Of a stretch of DNA of 34,077 bases, positions 7,911 through 17,746 are shown in pieces. Location: contig JAIFMS010000193.1 of the NCBI GenBank assembly GCA_020048335.1, positions 1 through 34,077 of the forward strand. Direction: 5' to 3'. Numbering within the stretch: position 1 is the first letter of the stretch; every line of letters begins with the position of its first letter. The stretch comes from Methylococcaceae bacterium (GTDB lineage: Bacteria > Pseudomonadota > Gammaproteobacteria > Methylococcales > Methylomonadaceae). The position numbers were made by a program, and so were the translations under genes. Under the pieces are notes generated by a model that saw only the letters and a list, made by a program, of their open reading frames with translations, had not been told where the DNA came from and ran no database searches.

Positions 7911-8132
7911 ATGAATACACAAGAATTAATCGCCGAAGCTATTTCTTTGCCCGTTGATGAAAGAGCCATCATGATTGACTGCTTATTAAAAAGCCTAAAT
8001 CCGCCCGAAGTAGAAATAGACAAAAAATGGGCGGCAATTGCTAAACAACGATTAGCCGAATTACGCAACGGAAAAGTAAAAGCCATTTCAGGCGATGAAG
8101 TCTTTGAAAAAATCTGGAATAAGTTTGCATAA
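7911..8132 (+). CDS. Addiction-module antitoxin (RelB-like, Unstab_antitox family)
   Basis: A 73-aa protein typical of the short putative addiction-module components. The N terminus is TQELIAEAISLPVDERAIMI, the middle is SLNPPEVEIDKKWAAIAKQR, and the end is KAISGDEVFEKIWNKFA. The LPVDERA motif and the WAAIAKQRLAEL helix are the family's hallmarks. The toxin gene starts one base after its stop region (ATG 8134), so the pair is co-translated. GGAGAA at 7902-7907 is a clear ribosome site. Confidence 0.88.
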   Translation: MNTQELIAEAISLPVDERAIMIDCLLKSLNPPEVEIDKKWAAIAKQRLAELRNGKVKAISGDEVFEKIWNKFA

Positions 8133-8133
8133 A

Positions 8134-8427
8134 ATGCACTATTTATTTCATCCCGATGCAGAAATTGAGCTAATTCAGGCAATTGATTATTATGAACAAT
8201 GCAGCAAAGGCTTAGGACAGGATTTTGTTTGTGAAGTTTATGCCACTATTGAAAGAATAATAAGTTATCCCCAAGCATGGTCTGTTATTGATGATGAAAT
8301 TAGACGGGCATTAGTTAAACGTTTTCCTTATGGTGTTTTGTATGCTGAAAATGACGCTGAAATATTCATTGTTGCGGTCATGAATCTGCATAGACATCCT
8401 GATTATTGGAAATATAGATACCATTAA
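8134..8427 (+). CDS. RelE/ParE-family toxin
   Basis: A 97-aa toxin beginning MHYLFHPDAEIELIQAIDYY. It continues with LGQDFVCEVYATIERI and YPQAWSVIDDEIRRALVKRF, and ends with PYGVLYAENDAEIFIVAVMNLHRHPDYW. The RRALVKRFPYGVLY strand and the H-R-x-P-xYW tail are characteristic of the ParE/RelE group paired with Unstab_antitox proteins. The ATG at 8134 is chosen because it follows the antitoxin stop by one base and matches family length. The in-frame ATG at 8095 would add 13 residues inside the antitoxin gene. Confidence 0.88.
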   Translation: MHYLFHPDAEIELIQAIDYYEQCSKGLGQDFVCEVYATIERIISYPQAWSVIDDEIRRALVKRFPYGVLYAENDAEIFIVAVMNLHRHPDYWKYRYH

Positions 8428-8442
8428 TGGAAAACTTACCCT

Positions 8443-8475
8443 TGATGTAAAAAAACAAATCAAAGACACAATTAA
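8443..8475 (+). repeat. Recurrent coding remnant, copy 3
   Basis: This stretch reads LDVKKQIKDTIKEQ and is preceded by the same AACTTACCC seen before copy 1. It is more diverged than the other copies. It lies between the toxin stop at 8427 and the next antitoxin start at 8484. Confidence 0.4.
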
Positions 8476-8483
8476 GGAACAAA

Positions 8484-8672
8484 ATGACCACCGCACTATT
8501 AGCCAAAGAATTTGTCCAAAAAACCCTTGATGAAATGCCAGATGATGTCAGCGTTGAAGAAATCATCAGAGAATTAACCTTCAAACGTATGATAGAACGC
8601 GGCTTGCAAGACTCATTAAATAATCGTGTCATTTCTCAACAACAATTAGAACAGCACATTGCCCAATGGTAA
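8484..8672 (+). CDS. Small antitoxin of a RelE/ParE pair
   Basis: A 62-aa acidic helical protein: MTTALLAKEFVQKTLDEMPD, then VSVEEIIRELTFKRMIERGL, ending in Gln-rich helices. The DDVSVEEIIRELTFKRMIERG pattern is shared with short antitoxins placed ahead of ParE-type toxins. Its last seven bases overlap the start of the toxin gene, in CAATGGTAA. AAGGAAC just before the ATG is the ribosome site. Assignment rests on size, pattern and partner. Confidence 0.75.
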   Translation: MTTALLAKEFVQKTLDEMPDDVSVEEIIRELTFKRMIERGLQDSLNNRVISQQQLEQHIAQW

Positions 8673-8962
8673 CAATTTATTGGACAGACGAAGCGATTGA
8701 ATGGCTGCAAAATATTCATGCTTATATCGCTAAAAATAACTCGAAAGCCGCACGAAATACGGTGGATAAAATTCTGGCAAAAGCCAAATTATTAGAGGAC
8801 TTTCCTGAACTCGGCGGAATTTATCCGCTTGATTTTCCTTATTCCATTCGAGTTATTTATTACAGTCATTATCGAATTGCTTATAAAATCGTGAGCGAGA
8901 AGCGTGTAGATATTTTAGGTGTTTTTCATGGGGCTATGGAAATGAAAAACTACCTTAAATAA
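8666..8962 (+). CDS. RelE/ParE-family toxin
   Basis: A 98-aa ParE/RelE toxin. WTDEAIEWLQNIHAYIAKNN opens the fold, followed by KILAKAKLLEDFPELGGIYP, and the core strands IRVIYYSHYRIAYKIV and VDILGVFHGAMEMKNYL close it. The F-P-E-L-G and YRIAYK motifs and the VFHGAME end place it in the ParE branch. It overlaps its antitoxin by seven bases. The target is not deducible. Confidence 0.88.
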   Translation: MVTIYWTDEAIEWLQNIHAYIAKNNSKAARNTVDKILAKAKLLEDFPELGGIYPLDFPYSIRVIYYSHYRIAYKIVSEKRVDILGVFHGAMEMKNYLK

Positions 8963-9671: not shown

Positions 9672-10274
9672 ATGTCATACAGTGATTTTGATTTAAAAAA
9701 AATAAAATCTACATTCAATATTGAAATAATGGAAAATGACGACTTATTTTCAAGTGTTCCTGAAATTGAAATCAGTGATTTATTAACACAACTGTTAAGA
9801 CAAAATGTACCTTTAGCTTTAGCCATGGGAACAGAAAAAGCCTGTTCTGAACTCATTATTATCAATATCTTTTTGGAAATAAAAATACAATTAAGGGTAA
9901 GCTTTTTTTCAGGCATCGAATTTACGGTTGACAAAGAATTAGGTTTAAATGGATTTTGTGATTTCATCATCAGCCAATCATCTGAACAATTGTTTTTAGA
10001 ATCACCCATTGTCGTTATCGTAGAAGCAAAAAAGAACGACATTAAAGAAGGCTTAGGGCAATGCGTTGCGCAAATGTTGGGAGCAACTTTATTTAATCAA
10101 AACCAAAATGAAAACAAAGAGTTTCCTGTTATTTACGGTTGTGTAACAACGGGAGAAATCTGGCAATTTTTAAAGTTAAAAGAGAAAACCTTTTATGTCG
10201 ATAGCCAACATTATTATATTAATGAGCTGGCTAAATTGATTGGTATCTTACAAGCGATTCTTGATGAAGAATAA
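9672..10274 (+). CDS. PD-(D/E)XK nuclease-like protein, second type
   Basis: A 200-aa protein with a type I restriction-like PD-(D/E)XK core: E60 in KACSELIIIN, D97 in LNGFCDFIIS, E118-A-K120 in IVVIVEAKKND, and a Gln in EGLGQCVAQML. It is a clear relative of the minus-strand gene at 14532-15125, which shares the opening MS-(Y/F)-SDF, IVVEAKKND, GQC and a W-QF strand. It follows paralogue B by 11 bases with AGGAAAAAAG as ribosome site, so the two may form an operon. I see no partner that fixes its role. Confidence 0.7.
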   Translation: MSYSDFDLKKIKSTFNIEIMENDDLFSSVPEIEISDLLTQLLRQNVPLALAMGTEKACSELIIINIFLEIKIQLRVSFFSGIEFTVDKELGLNGFCDFIISQSSEQLFLESPIVVIVEAKKNDIKEGLGQCVAQMLGATLFNQNQNENKEFPVIYGCVTTGEIWQFLKLKEKTFYVDSQHYYINELAKLIGILQAILDEE

Positions 10275-10412: not shown

Positions 10413-11054
10413 ATGCGCCGCCTCCCTCTTTATATTGTGATAGACACCTCAGGCTCAATGAATGGCGAACCCATTGCCTCGGTGAATGTTGGTTTACAAG
10501 CAATGGTACACGCCTTGCGCCAAGACCCGCACGCCTTAGATTCTGTGCATTTATCCTTGATTACCTTTGATAATGAAGTCAAAGAAATTTTCCCCCTCAC
10601 CCCGCTAGACCAAGTACAAATTCCTGAAATGGTCTGTCCAAAATCAGGCGCGACCAATTTAGGCGCGGCGTTGGAAAAAGTCATTGCCTCGCTGGATAAA
10701 GAAGTGCAGCGTAGTAGTGCTGACCAAAAAGGCGATTGGCGACCCATGCTATTTATAATGACCGATGGCGCACCGTCTGATACGGCGTGTTTTAATGAAA
10801 TGGTATTAAAAATTCGCCAGCGGCAATTTGGACGCATCATCGCCTGTGCCGCAGGGCCTAAAGCCAAAGAATCCTATTTAAAACAGCTTACCGATACGGT
10901 GGTCAGCTTAGACACCACCGACAGCGCGGCATTTGCCCGTTTCTTTCAATGGGTTTCTGCCAGTGTGGAACAAAGCAGTGGCGCAGCTGGGGCAGGTATG
11001 GATAAAACCACCCCTTTGCCGCCGCCACCCGATGAAATTCAAATTGTGATTTAG
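10413..11054 (+). CDS. TerY-like von Willebrand factor A protein
   Basis: A 213-aa stand-alone vWA domain of the TerY type. The metal-ion site is complete: DTSGSM (D11, S13, S15), T81 in GATNLGAAL and D118 in MTDGAPSD. The ATG at 10413 is preferred over the GTG at 10368 and ATG at 10383, because MRRLP matches the start of the neighbouring paralogue and of the family. A Pro-rich tail (PLPPPPDE) ends it. TerY proteins occur with PP2C phosphatases and kinases in tellurite/stress-response-like clusters and act as cytosolic metal-dependent protein-binding modules. The gene opens a tight operon with 11066 and 12130. Confidence 0.85.
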   Translation: MRRLPLYIVIDTSGSMNGEPIASVNVGLQAMVHALRQDPHALDSVHLSLITFDNEVKEIFPLTPLDQVQIPEMVCPKSGATNLGAALEKVIASLDKEVQRSSADQKGDWRPMLFIMTDGAPSDTACFNEMVLKIRQRQFGRIIACAAGPKAKESYLKQLTDTVVSLDTTDSAAFARFFQWVSASVEQSSGAAGAGMDKTTPLPPPPDEIQIVI

Positions 11055-11065
11055 GAAAACTTATC

Positions 11066-12133
11066 ATGCGTCGCTTACCCGTATTTTTAATTTTAGATGT
11101 TTCAGACTCCATGATAGGCGAGCCACATCGCTATTTAGAGGCAGGCGTGGAGGCTTTAACTAAAAAATTGCGCCAAGACCCGCAAGCTTTGGAAACCGTG
11201 CATTTGTCGATTATTGCCTTTGCGGGGCAAGTTAAAACCATTGTGCCGCTGATTGATTTACCCACGTTTTACGCGCCTAAATTGCCGATTGGGGCTGGGA
11301 CATCACTGGGCGCGGCGTTAGAACATTTAATGGCGGAAATGGATAAAAATGTCATTCCAACCACCCCCACGGCGAAAGGTGATTGGAAACCTGTGATTTA
11401 TTTTCTCACCGATGGCAAGCCAACCGATAAATATCAGGACGCGATAAAAAAATGGCAACAGCATTATGCTAAACGCTGTTTAATGATTGTGATTGGCTTA
11501 GGGCAATATGCTGATTTATCCGCGATGGCTGGCATTTCTGACGAAGCGTTTGTGTATAACGGTGAAAAAGAAGCCGACTTTGCCCGTTTTATTCAATGGA
11601 TGACTTTATCGGTGAAATCACAAAGTGTCGCAGTGGATAAACAAAGCAGTGCGACAGGCTGTGTTTCATTGGAAAAAGCCGGCGGTTTTTTAGAAAAGTT
11701 TGATTTTAACAGCACTTATTCTGACCAAGATTGCGTGGTGTTTGTGGGTCGCTGTCAAAAATTTAAAAAACCGTATTTGATTAAATATGACCGAATGCCC
11801 ACCTTTATGGAAATGGGTTTAGATTTGTCAAAAATGGACGCAGGGCAAAAACTTTATCATGTCACAGGCTGTTATCCAACCGATGAAAGCTATTTTGACT
11901 GGTCGGAGGATAAGGAAAATGTCAATCCTGTGATTAATGTGAAAAATTTAGTTGGCGGGGTGGGTTGTCCGTATTGTGGCAATGCTTATGCGTTAGGGAT
12001 TTGTAAATGCGGGGCGGTGTTTTGTGTGGGGGACGATGAAAACGCGCAATGTCCGTGGTGTGAAGCACAATTGAAAATGCAATCGAGCAGTGCCGATAGT
12101 GAAGGGTTTGAAATAACCCGTTCTAAAGGATGA
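11066..12133 (+). CDS. TerY-like vWA protein with C-terminal cysteine-rich domain
   Basis: A 355-aa protein. Residues about 1-200 form a vWA domain with DVSDSM (D11, S13, S15), T79 and D116 at the metal site, clearly paralogous to the gene just upstream. A linking region of about 100 residues is followed by a zinc-ribbon-like cluster of Cys at 301, 304, 313, 315, 320, 329 and 332 (CPYCG, CKCG, CPWC), as in TerY-C domains. It likely senses or scaffolds proteins controlled by the PP2C phosphatase encoded next. Its stop overlaps the phosphatase start by four bases (ATGA). AGGAAAAC precedes the ATG. Confidence 0.87.
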   Translation: MRRLPVFLILDVSDSMIGEPHRYLEAGVEALTKKLRQDPQALETVHLSIIAFAGQVKTIVPLIDLPTFYAPKLPIGAGTSLGAALEHLMAEMDKNVIPTTPTAKGDWKPVIYFLTDGKPTDKYQDAIKKWQQHYAKRCLMIVIGLGQYADLSAMAGISDEAFVYNGEKEADFARFIQWMTLSVKSQSVAVDKQSSATGCVSLEKAGGFLEKFDFNSTYSDQDCVVFVGRCQKFKKPYLIKYDRMPTFMEMGLDLSKMDAGQKLYHVTGCYPTDESYFDWSEDKENVNPVINVKNLVGGVGCPYCGNAYALGICKCGAVFCVGDDENAQCPWCEAQLKMQSSSADSEGFEITRSKG

Positions 12134-13566
12134 AAATCGTGTTTGAGTTATCGAACCTACGAATTTGTTTAGAGATGCTGGCGCGTTTTCAAATCCCAGC
12201 GGATTTAAACCAAATTAAGCAATTTTTGGCAGTTGAAGCGCAAACACAGTGGCTTGATGAAGAAATGGCGCAGTTAAAACAACGCTGGGATGTTTTTTTT
12301 ACACCTGTTCTTTTAGCAACAGCGACGCTGGACAATACCTCAGCCACGGAACAGGAGCCAGCCCTTGTGTTACCTCAACCGATAACGCCCATTCGCTTTA
12401 AATTGCCTAATGCCACCGTGGGTAAAACCTATCAAGCCGCTTTAGAATGGCACGATGAACGGTCTATTCGGATTGTTTCGCTGACAGGACTTGAAAGCGT
12501 TGGCTTAATCTATCAACCTGAGCAAAATCTGTTAAGTGGTGAGCCTCAGCAGGCAGGTGATTATGTGTTACAAATTACTTATTGTTTGGAAAAAAATTTA
12601 AACCTGCTACAGGTCACGCCATTAAATTTTGTGATTAATAGCGACCCGAAAAGCTTGTGGCAAGCGATTCCCTCACAACCTGCGGACTTATTTTGGAAAC
12701 CCGACTCCGCTTATCAAGGTGCAATAGGACATTATGGTTGGCAACTTGCCGCTGCCAGTAAACGGGGACGTTCTCATGCCCATGTTGGCAGTTGTCGGGA
12801 TGATGATTTTGCTTTTTGTGTTGAGCCAGAAACGCTGTGGCACGTTGTGGCAGTCACTGATGGCGCAGGCAGTAGTCAGTATTCGCGCGAAGGGGCGCGG
12901 GTAATTGCACAACAAAGTGTCGCGCTATTGACCGCACAATTACAACACGCCGATGCACAAATTTCTGCTCTCGTTGTGGAATGGCAAACCACGCAACAAG
13001 CCAGTGAGGAAGCGATTTTAAAAACATTGCTGTGTGATTTATTAAGCCAAACCCTACAACACTGCGTCACAGAACTGGAAGCCTTAGCGCAACAGCAACA
13101 CGGCAGTTATCGTGATTTTTATTCCACGCTACTGATTGCCGCCCATAAAGCGTTTCCCAACGGGGAGTTTATTGTTAGCTATTGGATTGGTGACGGCGGT
13201 TTAGGACTCTATCAAGCAGGACAAAAAATTGACTTATTAGGCACGGGGGATAGTGGCGAATATGCGGGGCAAACCCGTTTTTTAGATGCCAGCGCGGCTC
13301 AACCTGAAGAAGTTTTTAACCGTGTCTATTGTCGGACGGTGAAAAATTTTACCGCCTTAGTGTTAATGAGTGATGGAATTACCGACCCGCTGTTTGAAAC
13401 CGATAATAAATTACAGACATTAGGTTGTTGGGATGATTTTTGGCAGCACATTCAACCGTTACTGGCTGAAAATCCTACTTTGACGGCACAACAATTAACC
13501 GACTGGCTAGACTTTTGGTCAGCAGGCAATCACGATGACCGGACGCTGGCGATGATTTATCGTTAA
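12130..13566 (+). CDS. PP2C-family protein phosphatase with N-terminal Ig-like region
   Basis: A 478-aa protein. Residues about 85-170 resemble a putative Ig-type sandwich (LPNATVGKTYQAAL, then YQPEQNLLSGEPQQAGDYVL). Residues about 200-478 are a PP2C Ser/Thr phosphatase: GRSHAHVGSCRDDDFAF, VTDGAGSS (D244), YWIGDGGLGLY, VLMSDGITDPL and a final GNHDDRTLAMIYR. These Asp residues form the two-metal centre. It is co-translated with the TerY-C gene through an ATGA overlap. In TerY-P triads the phosphatase opposes a kinase, and none is present here. It is cytosolic, with no signal peptide or membrane helix. Confidence 0.85.
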   Translation: MKIVFELSNLRICLEMLARFQIPADLNQIKQFLAVEAQTQWLDEEMAQLKQRWDVFFTPVLLATATLDNTSATEQEPALVLPQPITPIRFKLPNATVGKTYQAALEWHDERSIRIVSLTGLESVGLIYQPEQNLLSGEPQQAGDYVLQITYCLEKNLNLLQVTPLNFVINSDPKSLWQAIPSQPADLFWKPDSAYQGAIGHYGWQLAAASKRGRSHAHVGSCRDDDFAFCVEPETLWHVVAVTDGAGSSQYSREGARVIAQQSVALLTAQLQHADAQISALVVEWQTTQQASEEAILKTLLCDLLSQTLQHCVTELEALAQQQHGSYRDFYSTLLIAAHKAFPNGEFIVSYWIGDGGLGLYQAGQKIDLLGTGDSGEYAGQTRFLDASAAQPEEVFNRVYCRTVKNFTALVLMSDGITDPLFETDNKLQTLGCWDDFWQHIQPLLAENPTLTAQQLTDWLDFWSAGNHDDRTLAMIYR

Positions 13567-13590
13567 ACTTTCTATTTTGAGGAACAAACA

Positions 13591-13938
13591 ATGCCTTATT
13601 TGAAACTAAAGACCAATGTTAAGGTTGCTGCGGTACAAAAACCAACTTTGCTAAAACAGTTTTCCCAACTGATGGCACACCAAACAGGGAAACCCGAACG
13701 TTATGTTTTGGTGGAACTTGCCAGTGAACAAGCCATGCTGTTTGCAGGCACTGACCAGCCATTGGCGTATTTAGAATGCAAAAGCATTGGGTTGAGTGTG
13801 GCGCAGGTAGATGTGTTAGCCGCTGCCCTTTGTCAATTATTACACACGCAATTACAGATTGAACCTGAACGGGTTTATATTGAATTTAGCGACTGCCCCG
13901 CCGCGTATTGGGGTTGGAACGGTTCAACTTTTGGTTAA
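13591..13938 (+). CDS. MIF-like tautomerase
   Basis: A 115-aa member of the macrophage-migration-inhibitory-factor/phenylpyruvate tautomerase family. The family's catalytic Pro follows the initiator Met (MPYLKLKTN), and the typical C-terminal block is present, with ERVYIEF and then AAYWGWNGSTFG. Length and motifs agree with a functional trimeric tautomerase. It follows the PP2C gene by 24 bases with TTTGAGGAACA as ribosome site, so it is probably transcribed with the TerY cluster. A mechanistic link to that cluster is not known to me. Its natural substrate is unclear, as for most bacterial members. Confidence 0.88.
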   Translation: MPYLKLKTNVKVAAVQKPTLLKQFSQLMAHQTGKPERYVLVELASEQAMLFAGTDQPLAYLECKSIGLSVAQVDVLAAALCQLLHTQLQIEPERVYIEFSDCPAAYWGWNGSTFG

Positions 13939-13961
13939 TCTTTTATTTTACAAACAACATC

Positions 13962-14345
13962 ATGGCAAAAATCTCCGAAACACTGCAACATCCTATTTTA
14001 TTGGTACTAATTCCTGCGGCATTAGGGCTGGCAGGCACGCTTTACAGCACTGCTAATAAATCCACCCCAACGGATAAAAACGTATCAGAGGCAGAAAAAA
14101 TTTTTTGGGCAAGTATTCAGCCACCGAACGAGTCTGAGGAAAAATATTGCGCTTATTTAGAGCAGTACCCCAAAGGTGAGTTTGTGAAATTGGCTTTGCC
14201 CAATTGCTCGGCGGCATTAGAAGCCAAACAAGCCGCAGAAGAACAAGCCACAGAACTTGCCCAACAAAAAGCAGAAGCGCAGGCTGCGGCTAAGGAAGCA
14301 GCAGAAGCCGCCGCTGAGGCTGCCAAAGAAGCCGCGCAGCAATAA
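13962..14345 (+). CDS. Small membrane-anchored Ala/Glu-rich protein
   Basis: A 127-aa protein. A hydrophobic helix at about residues 10-27 (PILLVLIPAALGLAGTLY) anchors it. Next come a soluble stretch with a YCAYLEQYPKGEFVKLAL repeat-like motif (a short TPR-like pattern seen in bacterial stress proteins) and a long Ala/Glu/Lys coiled coil to the C terminus. The ATG at 13962 is chosen because it begins just before the helix. The ORF can be extended upstream only into the tautomerase gene. It ends 20 bases before a strong terminator and is likely the last gene of the TerY operon. Function is unknown. Confidence 0.65.
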   Translation: MAKISETLQHPILLVLIPAALGLAGTLYSTANKSTPTDKNVSEAEKIFWASIQPPNESEEKYCAYLEQYPKGEFVKLALPNCSAALEAKQAAEEQATELAQQKAEAQAAAKEAAEAAAEAAKEAAQQ

Positions 14346-14364: not shown

Positions 14365-14404
14365 AATCTAATAAGGGAAGCGTTTCCCCTTATTAGATTT
14401 TTGG
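14365..14404 (+). terminator. Strong terminator after the TerY operon
   Basis: AATCTAATAAGGG (14365-14377) pairs perfectly with CCCTTATTAGATT (14387-14399) over 13 base pairs, and is followed by TTTT. The A-rich left arm makes it work in either direction, so it may also insulate the minus-strand gene at 14532. Confidence 0.85.
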
Positions 14405-14531: not shown

Positions 14532-15125
14532 CTATTGCGCTGATAAAATTAAATAAATCAAAGCTCCACACAATAAATTTAACTTGTCAATGGTAAAGCT
14601 TTCGGTATTTTTATAAAAACAATCTTTTTCTAATTTACCAAATTGCCATAAATTACCATCAGTGACCACACCAAAAACAGGATTTTCTAAATTTTCATTT
14701 ATTTTTTGTGAGGCAATTAACTCAGCTAAACATTGTCCCCATCCTTGTTCAAAATCATTCTTTTTCGCCTCGACCACAATCACAATGGGTTTTTCTAACA
14801 CGGTTTTTCCCAATGCAGATTTTACTGAAAAAATATAATCTGGCGTTCCACACAATAAATCATCGTAAGCAATGCTTTTTTGTACCCAAAAAGACAGTGT
14901 TTTATAACAGTGTTTGTAAATTTCTCGCAAAATTGGAGAGATAATAACTTCGCAGCGAGAGGCTTCTGAGCTAAAAACATCCATATTTTCTCTATAAAAT
15001 AAAAGGTCTGCGACAAAATTTTCAGGTAATGGCATTTCAGAGGCTTCAATAAAGTTTTCTTCTTTATATTTTATGGAATATTTTTTTTGTACTTCGCCAA
15101 TTGTTTTAAAATCGCTAAACGACAT
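14532..15125 (-). CDS. PD-(D/E)XK nuclease-like protein, second type
   Basis: A 197-aa protein related to the gene at 9672-10274. It has the same core layout: E59 in RCEVIISPI, D96 in GTPDYIFS, E119-A-K121 in IVIVVEAKKND, and a Gln in GWGQCLAEL. It then has a WQFGKL strand and ends with a hydrophobic helix, LCGALIYLILSAQ. The ATG at 15125 (minus strand) has GGGAG seven bases upstream, so it is preferred over the TTG at 15146. It is followed on its strand by only a decayed antitoxin tail. Function is not known; a nuclease-fold role in defence is possible. Confidence 0.7.
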   Translation of the reverse strand: MSFSDFKTIGEVQKKYSIKYKEENFIEASEMPLPENFVADLLFYRENMDVFSSEASRCEVIISPILREIYKHCYKTLSFWVQKSIAYDDLLCGTPDYIFSVKSALGKTVLEKPIVIVVEAKKNDFEQGWGQCLAELIASQKINENLENPVFGVVTDGNLWQFGKLEKDCFYKNTESFTIDKLNLLCGALIYLILSAQ

Positions 15126-15157
15126 CGTATTCTCCCGTTGGGTCAACTGCTTTTACG

Positions 15158-17102: not shown

Positions 17103-17345
17103 ATGGCAACCGCAAAACTTTTTCAAAATGGGCGTTCACAAGCGGTGCGTTTACCGAAAGAATTTCGATTTTCTGGCAAAGAAGTCAAAATTTCCAAGCA
17201 AGGCGATAAAATTATTTTGGAGGCGATTGAAAACTCATGGGAGCAATGGTTTTCAAGTTTTGGTCAATTTTCGGAGGATTTTATGGCAAACGGAAGAGAG
17301 CAACCAGAACAGCCACAAGAACGCGATTGGGGTGCGATTATATGA
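17103..17345 (+). CDS. vapB: VapB antitoxin (AbrB/SpoVT type)
   Basis: An 80-aa antitoxin with an AbrB-like swapped-hairpin DNA-binding N terminus: MATAKLFQNGRSQAVRLPKE, then KEVKISKQGDKIILE. The SQAVRLPKEFRF motif is the standard VapB signature. The C-terminal 30 residues, rich in Trp, Gln and Arg (SWEQWFSSF, PQERDW), bind the toxin. The ATG at 17103 follows TTAGGAGAAAATAGC. Its stop overlaps the vapC start (ATGA). A palindrome just upstream fits autoregulation. Confidence 0.92.
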   Translation: MATAKLFQNGRSQAVRLPKEFRFSGKEVKISKQGDKIILEAIENSWEQWFSSFGQFSEDFMANGREQPEQPQERDWGAII

Positions 17346-17746
17346 TTCGCTATTTATTGGATACGGATATTTGTATCTATCTGATAAAAAAACATCCGCC
17401 CGAAGTGTTAGCCCGTTTTCAACAAACTCAACTCAAACAGTTGCATATTTCAACAATTACGGTGTTTGAGTTATATTTTGGCATTGAAAAAAATAATTCT
17501 CAGCAACGCAATTTAGTTGCATTGGAGAATTTTATCGCTCCTTTGATGTTGGTTGATTTTAGTGTGGAATCTGCAAAAAAAGCGGCAAAAATTCGTAGCA
17601 TTTTACAGAAACAAGGAACACCCATTGGCGCGTATGATTTACAAATTGCGGCGATTGCCGTTGCAGAAAATATGACTTTATTGACCAATAATGTTCGTGA
17701 ATTTGAACGTGTGAAAGGATTAAAATTGGAAAATTGGGTTAATTAA
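17342..17746 (+). CDS. vapC: VapC toxin, tRNA(fMet)-specific endonuclease type
   Basis: A 134-aa PIN-domain toxin. LLDTDICIYLIK carries the first Asp (D7), the Glu is in TVFELYFGI, the third acidic residue is in GAYDLQIAAIA, and the strand LLTNNVREFERV closes the site. This pattern matches VapC enzymes that cut initiator tRNA in the anticodon stem. The start at 17342 is chosen because of the four-base overlap with vapB; a longer frame from 17237 lies within vapB and is spurious. Both genes are intact, so the module should be active. Confidence 0.92.
   Translation: MIRYLLDTDICIYLIKKHPPEVLARFQQTQLKQLHISTITVFELYFGIEKNNSQQRNLVALENFIAPLMLVDFSVESAKKAAKIRSILQKQGTPIGAYDLQIAAIAVAENMTLLTNNVREFERVKGLKLENWVN

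Follow-up and report, generated by a model that had tools for sequence, protein, structure and literature searches.

PMC11090510, citing Anantharaman et al. 2012, describes TerY-P triads as a TerY vWA protein, a PP2C phosphatase and a Ser/Thr kinase with a C-terminal zinc ribbon. In the window, by which we mean the whole 34,077-nt stretch analyzed here (contig JAIFMS010000193.1 of the Methylococcaceae assembly GCA_020048335.1), two vWA genes and a PP2C gene are followed by a tautomerase gene and a gene for a membrane-anchored protein, and an initial annotation of the DNA proposed that these two had replaced the kinase. The locus thus raises the question of whether its kinase was lost, replaced or merely relocated.

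Gene content of the cluster

The five genes and the terminal hairpin were all confirmed as real and in the places given by the initial annotation:

10413-11054, plus strand: TerY-type vWA protein 1, 213 aa, with a MIDAS-type DTSGS motif (PF00092)
11066-12133, plus strand: TerY, vWA (DVSDS) plus TerY_C metal-binding domain, 355 aa (PF15616)
12130-13566, plus strand: PP2C phosphatase with N-terminal helical and Ig/cadherin-like regions, 478 aa (PF13672)
13591-13938, plus strand: MIF-type tautomerase, 115 aa (PF01187)
13962-14345, plus strand: short membrane-anchored, Ala-rich, probably coiled-coil protein, 127 aa (one hydrophobic stretch)
14365-14403, plus strand: hairpin followed by a U-run, likely an intrinsic terminator, with a 12-13 bp stem (folding energy)

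Pfam analysis supported the reading of the first three genes as a TerY-P-like vWA pair with a PP2C. Gene 1 matched VWA (PF00092, E 5e-13), gene 2 matched VWA (E 9e-9) and TerY_C (PF15616, E 3e-42), the latter accounting for the Cys-rich tail seen earlier on the second vWA protein, and gene 3 matched PP2C_2 (PF13672, E 7e-37, residues 212-461). NCBIfam returned no model at its cut-off for genes 1-5, and PADLOC no match to them at E 0.01. Both vWA genes carry the MIDAS-like DxSxS motif (DTSGS and DVSDS), with D11, S13 and S15 invariant in the five aligned rows of each. Gene 1 shares 86, 79 and 76% identity with the first operon gene of the relatives G002, G058 and G010, respectively, and TerY shares 86, 78, 75 and 46% identity with its counterparts in G002, G058, G010 and G294.

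In a 30-row PP2C alignment (the window and 29 of 77 PP2C-bearing loci, the interrupted G010 gene being omitted from alignments), D224, D225, D244 and D355 are invariant and D415 and D470 are conserved in at least 90% of the rows; these Asp residues are the metal ligands. The AlphaFold2 model built on this alignment (mean pLDDT 91) displays helices at residues 2-57, a loop at 59-80 with pLDDT under 50, and strands from about 101 to 170 ahead of the phosphatase domain. PP2C phosphatases lead among the Foldseek matches listed (TM 0.36-0.62 by target length), and the PP2C profile weakly matches phosphatase 5d2u and, in its Ig-like part, the serine-rich adhesin for platelets (4m00, 4m02, 4m03). The Ig-like N-terminal region assigned to this PP2C is real, but it is not the extra feature it was taken for, since 74 of the 78 PP2C ORFs in 77 loci (from the best 80 of 86 TerY loci) carry such a segment, ruling out a special fusion; of the four exceptions, two are incomplete ORFs (L097, L109) and two come from planctomycetes (L163, L164). 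Both the vWA pair and the Ig-like PP2C N-terminus are common in the family.

The PP2C gene of G010 (L017 7738-9153) contains one in-frame stop, though the adjoining kinase and vWA genes are open, and a lone TerY-like vWA gene in the same genome (L018 8405-9712) lies apart from the TerY-P operon, directly 3' of a gene labeled TerD-like from its translation. The window's genome holds a second, distant vWA-PP2C pair on contig 146 (L019 8124-9634), with no Pkinase match listed there.

The five genes lie on one strand, separated in gene order by 11 bp, a 4-bp overlap, 24 bp and 23 bp. The hairpin at the end of the cluster (-19.6 kcal/mol, z -4.93; 0 of 200 shuffles equally stable) agrees with the terminator assigned there and is likely an intrinsic one, and the regions around both tautomerase junctions contain no comparable hairpin (z -0.22 and 1.23). 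The terminator scan was limited to loops of 8, and the end hairpin, with a loop of 9, is therefore absent from its output; its 13 sites (5.3 expected) all lie within or at the start of genes 1-3 and were discounted as evidence. The promoter scan gave 8 sites against 7.7 expected. Given the tight same-strand spacing and the single end hairpin, co-transcription of the tautomerase is possible, and both downstream genes may share the module transcript; the single five-gene operon of the initial annotation stands to this extent, as one possible transcript.

Each side of the operon is flanked by a PD-(D/E)XK-type protein (9672-10274 and 14532-15146), the two being encoded on opposite strands and both matching the PADLOC model PDLC01472 (E <1e-45). 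Small gene pairs resembling toxin-antitoxin modules (judged by eye as ParE-like and VapBC-like) also occur on both sides (7911-8962 and 17103-17746).

Location and evolution of the kinase gene

Among 101 genomes, namely the window's own (G000) and 100 relatives, TerY was detected in four: G000 and its congener G002, plus G010 and G058, which represent another genus in the family. In G010 and G058, PP2C is directly followed by a protein kinase of 505 or 511 aa (33.9 and 32.9 bits vs a Pfam Pkinase cut-off of 31.7), while in G002 the next two genes are a 194-aa ORF that matches no Pfam family and an M48 peptidase. When the G010 kinase was used as query, open orthologues were found in G000 at C180:800-2293 (76% identity; PF00069, 35.8 bits vs 31.7) and in G002 at C76:11608-13110 (75% identity), besides weaker kinases (32-34%) in G000, G001 and G002. 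In both genomes the kinase contig differs from the TerY contig, and the kinase neighbors differ between the two: from their translations we would call those in G000 ispF- and tilS-like, whereas G002 has a dacB-like gene and glycosyltransferase genes there. Given the orthologue at C180, the kinase is present but unlinked in the assembly, and its loss is ruled out. Absence of a kinase, as first annotated, is thus true of the cluster but not of the genome, and the search elsewhere in the genome that the annotation had suggested recovered the co-occurring gene.

Four kinases, including both detached ones, could be aligned along their length; the HxD..N catalytic loop and four cysteines (Cys356, Cys361, Cys376 and Cys379) are invariant in them, and we read the C-terminal four-cysteine motif as zinc-ribbon-like. 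PADLOC matched both kinases only weakly (E 3e-5 or worse) and to models of other systems.

Co-occurrence of the two genes holds across the family. At a limit of E at most 1e-60 for each, 7 of 237 family genomes (own included) contain the kinase and 6 contain TerY, those 6 lying within the 7 (Fisher 3e-11, relatedness not corrected), and G001, of the same genus as the window's, contains neither. The kinase is adjacent to TerY and PP2C in G010, G058, G523 and G639 but not in G000 and G002. The seventh kinase genome, G509, also has its kinase next to PP2C; the contig starts partway through PP2C, and TerY may therefore have been lost in assembly. A TerD-like ORF (by reading its translation) precedes the vWA gene in G523.

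A scan of genome contigs placed these loci in a wider setting. In the best 80 of 86 TerY loci, which are not independent since several enterobacterial ones look like near-copies, a same-strand kinase is found in 77, PP2C in 77 and an ORF best matching vWA1 in 75, and 54 read vWA-vWA-TerY-PP2C-kinase by best-match labels. Among these 80, no kinase accompanies TerY in L090 (corresponding to G002), L150 and L156, and of the 77 with PP2C only G002 is without a kinase, the window being a second case from the same genus. The PP2C-to-kinase gap, with starts taken from first-start ORFs, ranges from -196 to 218 bp and was measurable in 73 of the other 76 loci. In L168 TerY is preceded by a kinase fragment at the end of the contig, and no PP2C was matched. 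The Prevotellaceae loci L150 and L156 read vWA-vWA-TerY, and neither PP2C nor a kinase was matched in the 8 kb downstream. L113, from a record titled Chryseobacterium, is the same in layout and identities as Citrobacter L111 from a similarly named isolate, perhaps reflecting contamination.

Separate trees for the kinase and for TerY, each with 30 rows (26 of the 80 loci and four more), recovered the same five family rows as a clade, namely G000, G002, G010, L091 and L092 (100/99 for the kinase and 100/100 for TerY; L090, L091, L092 and L099 correspond to G002, G058, G639 and G294), lending no support to a different origin of the kinase. Within the clade the TerY tree pairs G000 with G002 (92/81) and the kinase tree does not (fork 89/58), so the separation may have happened once or twice. 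Between G000 and G002 the kinase shows 82% identity and dN/dS 0.07, TerY and vWA1 dN/dS 0.05, and PP2C, far less conserved than its partners, 51% identity and dN/dS 0.14, the NG86 values being only roughly comparable because dS is saturated.

We consider it highly probable that genes 1-3 are a TerY-P module, that the kinase gene elsewhere in the genome acts with it in trans, and that the tautomerase and membrane genes are independent neighbors. The two vWA proteins, the second with its TerY_C zinc domain, and PP2C would work with a dedicated Ser/Thr kinase bearing the putative zinc-ribbon-like motif, whose gene would have left the operon in the genus of G000 and G002 while staying conserved and still acting in trans. 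Between them, the kinase and PP2C would control how far a target is phosphorylated, the MIDAS vWA and zinc domains might serve as a metal-dependent scaffold or sensor, and the output could be a stress or anti-phage response. The six TerD matches on six contigs of the window's genome, together with the TerD-like ORF of G523, fit a Ter-type stress role.

Could the module instead have lost its dependence on this kinase, the solo kinase serving another pathway and the vWA-PP2C operon working alone or with another kinase? The position of the kinase apart from the operon, with different neighbors in G000 and G002, would be consistent with this, as would PP2C being the most diverged of the four module genes between them, and with seven Pkinase matches in all in the window's genome, other kinases could serve. 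However, all six family TerY genomes retain the kinase, G001 has neither gene at the E limit, and in the detached kinases the conserved motifs are intact and identity to the linked G010 kinase is still 75-76%, making such independence very unlikely.

The separation might also be an assembly or binning artefact concealing a kinase that truly follows PP2C, as both genomes are fragmented drafts, the window's with 204 contigs (90.5% complete) and that of G002 with about 270, and the G000 kinase lies 797 bp from a contig end. We find this hardly credible, since the same pattern appears in two separate assemblies, the junctions of PP2C with its neighbors lie inside contigs (at 13.6 of 34 kb in the window and about 4 of 19 kb in G002 C22), and a divergent gene stands upstream of each detached kinase, where PP2C would sit.

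The tautomerase and the membrane-anchored protein

Gene 4 matches MIF over its full length (PF01187, E 9e-26), its best PDB match is 2xcz_A (E 2e-21), and its sequence starts with MPYLKL. A Pro after the start Met is expected of the MIF family, and in both this residue and the full-length PF01187 match the protein resembles other family members; it differs in lying beside a TerY module, an arrangement that none of the other loci examined shares. With the ATG at 13962 taken as its start, gene 5 encodes a single hydrophobic stretch (residues 12-30), and no Pfam family passes a cut-off for it. Its best non-self match in the 101 genomes reaches E 1e-11 at 39%, and it is a lineage-specific neighbor.

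The same strand, the gaps of 24 and 23 bp and the junctions free of terminator-like hairpins would suit the proposal that the two proteins are functional parts of the module replacing the kinase, but the kinase is present in the genome and adjoins PP2C in G010 and G058, and the distribution of the tautomerase given below renders that proposal scarcely tenable. In none of the 80 TerY loci (best 80 of 86) does the tautomerase or the membrane gene occur, which answers in the negative whether the tautomerase is conserved with TerY-PP2C in other genomes. The tautomerase was found in 56 of the 101 genomes (own included), with one match each, and showed no association with TerY (2 of 4 TerY genomes vs 54 of 97 others; Fisher P 1.0, weak alone with four TerY genomes only). 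G002 carries it on contig 86 and TerY on contig 22, G001 carries it on contig 41 and has no TerY match, and the TerY-bearing G010, G058 and 58%-complete G294 gave no PF01187 match. Across 30 tautomerase loci (the window's included), covered up to about 1.5 kb on each side, PP2C appears only at the window's own and no module gene at the other 29; five longer stretches (L084-L088, 7.8-14 kb) likewise contain no module gene. In related genomes the tautomerase is thus not linked to TerY, an outcome that the initial annotation had named as refuting its proposal, and the tautomerase as part of a conserved TerY-P system is refuted. It looks like an incidental downstream neighbor rather than a kinase replacement, and it and the membrane-anchored protein would be independent genes that came downstream in this lineage. 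In the literature library searched, no paper joined TerY with a kinase, PP2C and a tautomerase, and none joined at least two of bacterial MIF, the tautomerase superfamily and Methylococcales.

We offer only tentatively, as a rather doubtful idea, that uncoupling of the kinase in this genus, in location and perhaps in regulation, lets the activating and resetting arms be expressed independently and leaves the operon free to take on further genes downstream, the tautomerase being one.

Comparison with known TerY-P systems

TerY-P triads have been connected with tellurite resistance and with restriction systems (PMC11090510; also PMC4978471, PMC7699616 and PMC10889362), and passages of PMC11090510 put forward TerY-P as a hypothetical metal-sensing phosphorylation switch and describe a duplicated TerY-like vWA for type III-A CoCoNuTs. 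TerY-P anti-phage systems were reported by Gao et al. 2020 (via PMC7699616 and PMC11090510), with a variant from P. aeruginosa (PMC10889362); according to PMC11090510, it is OB-fold versions that act against phages, and the kinase of the Gao type carries an OB-fold at its end rather than a zinc ribbon. The system described here shares the three activities with these anti-phage systems but differs from them, as far as those accounts describe them, by their OB-fold kinase end, and its vWA, TerY and PP2C have no PADLOC match (E 0.01).

The system search described in PMC10889362 allowed fewer than three intervening genes. Adjacency-based searches would call the split module incomplete although all its parts are present. 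The idea of a tautomerase standing in for the kinase was probably a false lead and is corrected here. The locus also provides an example of a signaling or defense module split across a genome. It is a known kind of module, with novelty confined to gene arrangement: as in the TerY-P triad, a TerY vWA with TerY_C, a PP2C and a kinase with a zinc-ribbon-like motif are all encoded in one genome, but in G000 and G002 the kinase is not adjacent to TerY and PP2C.
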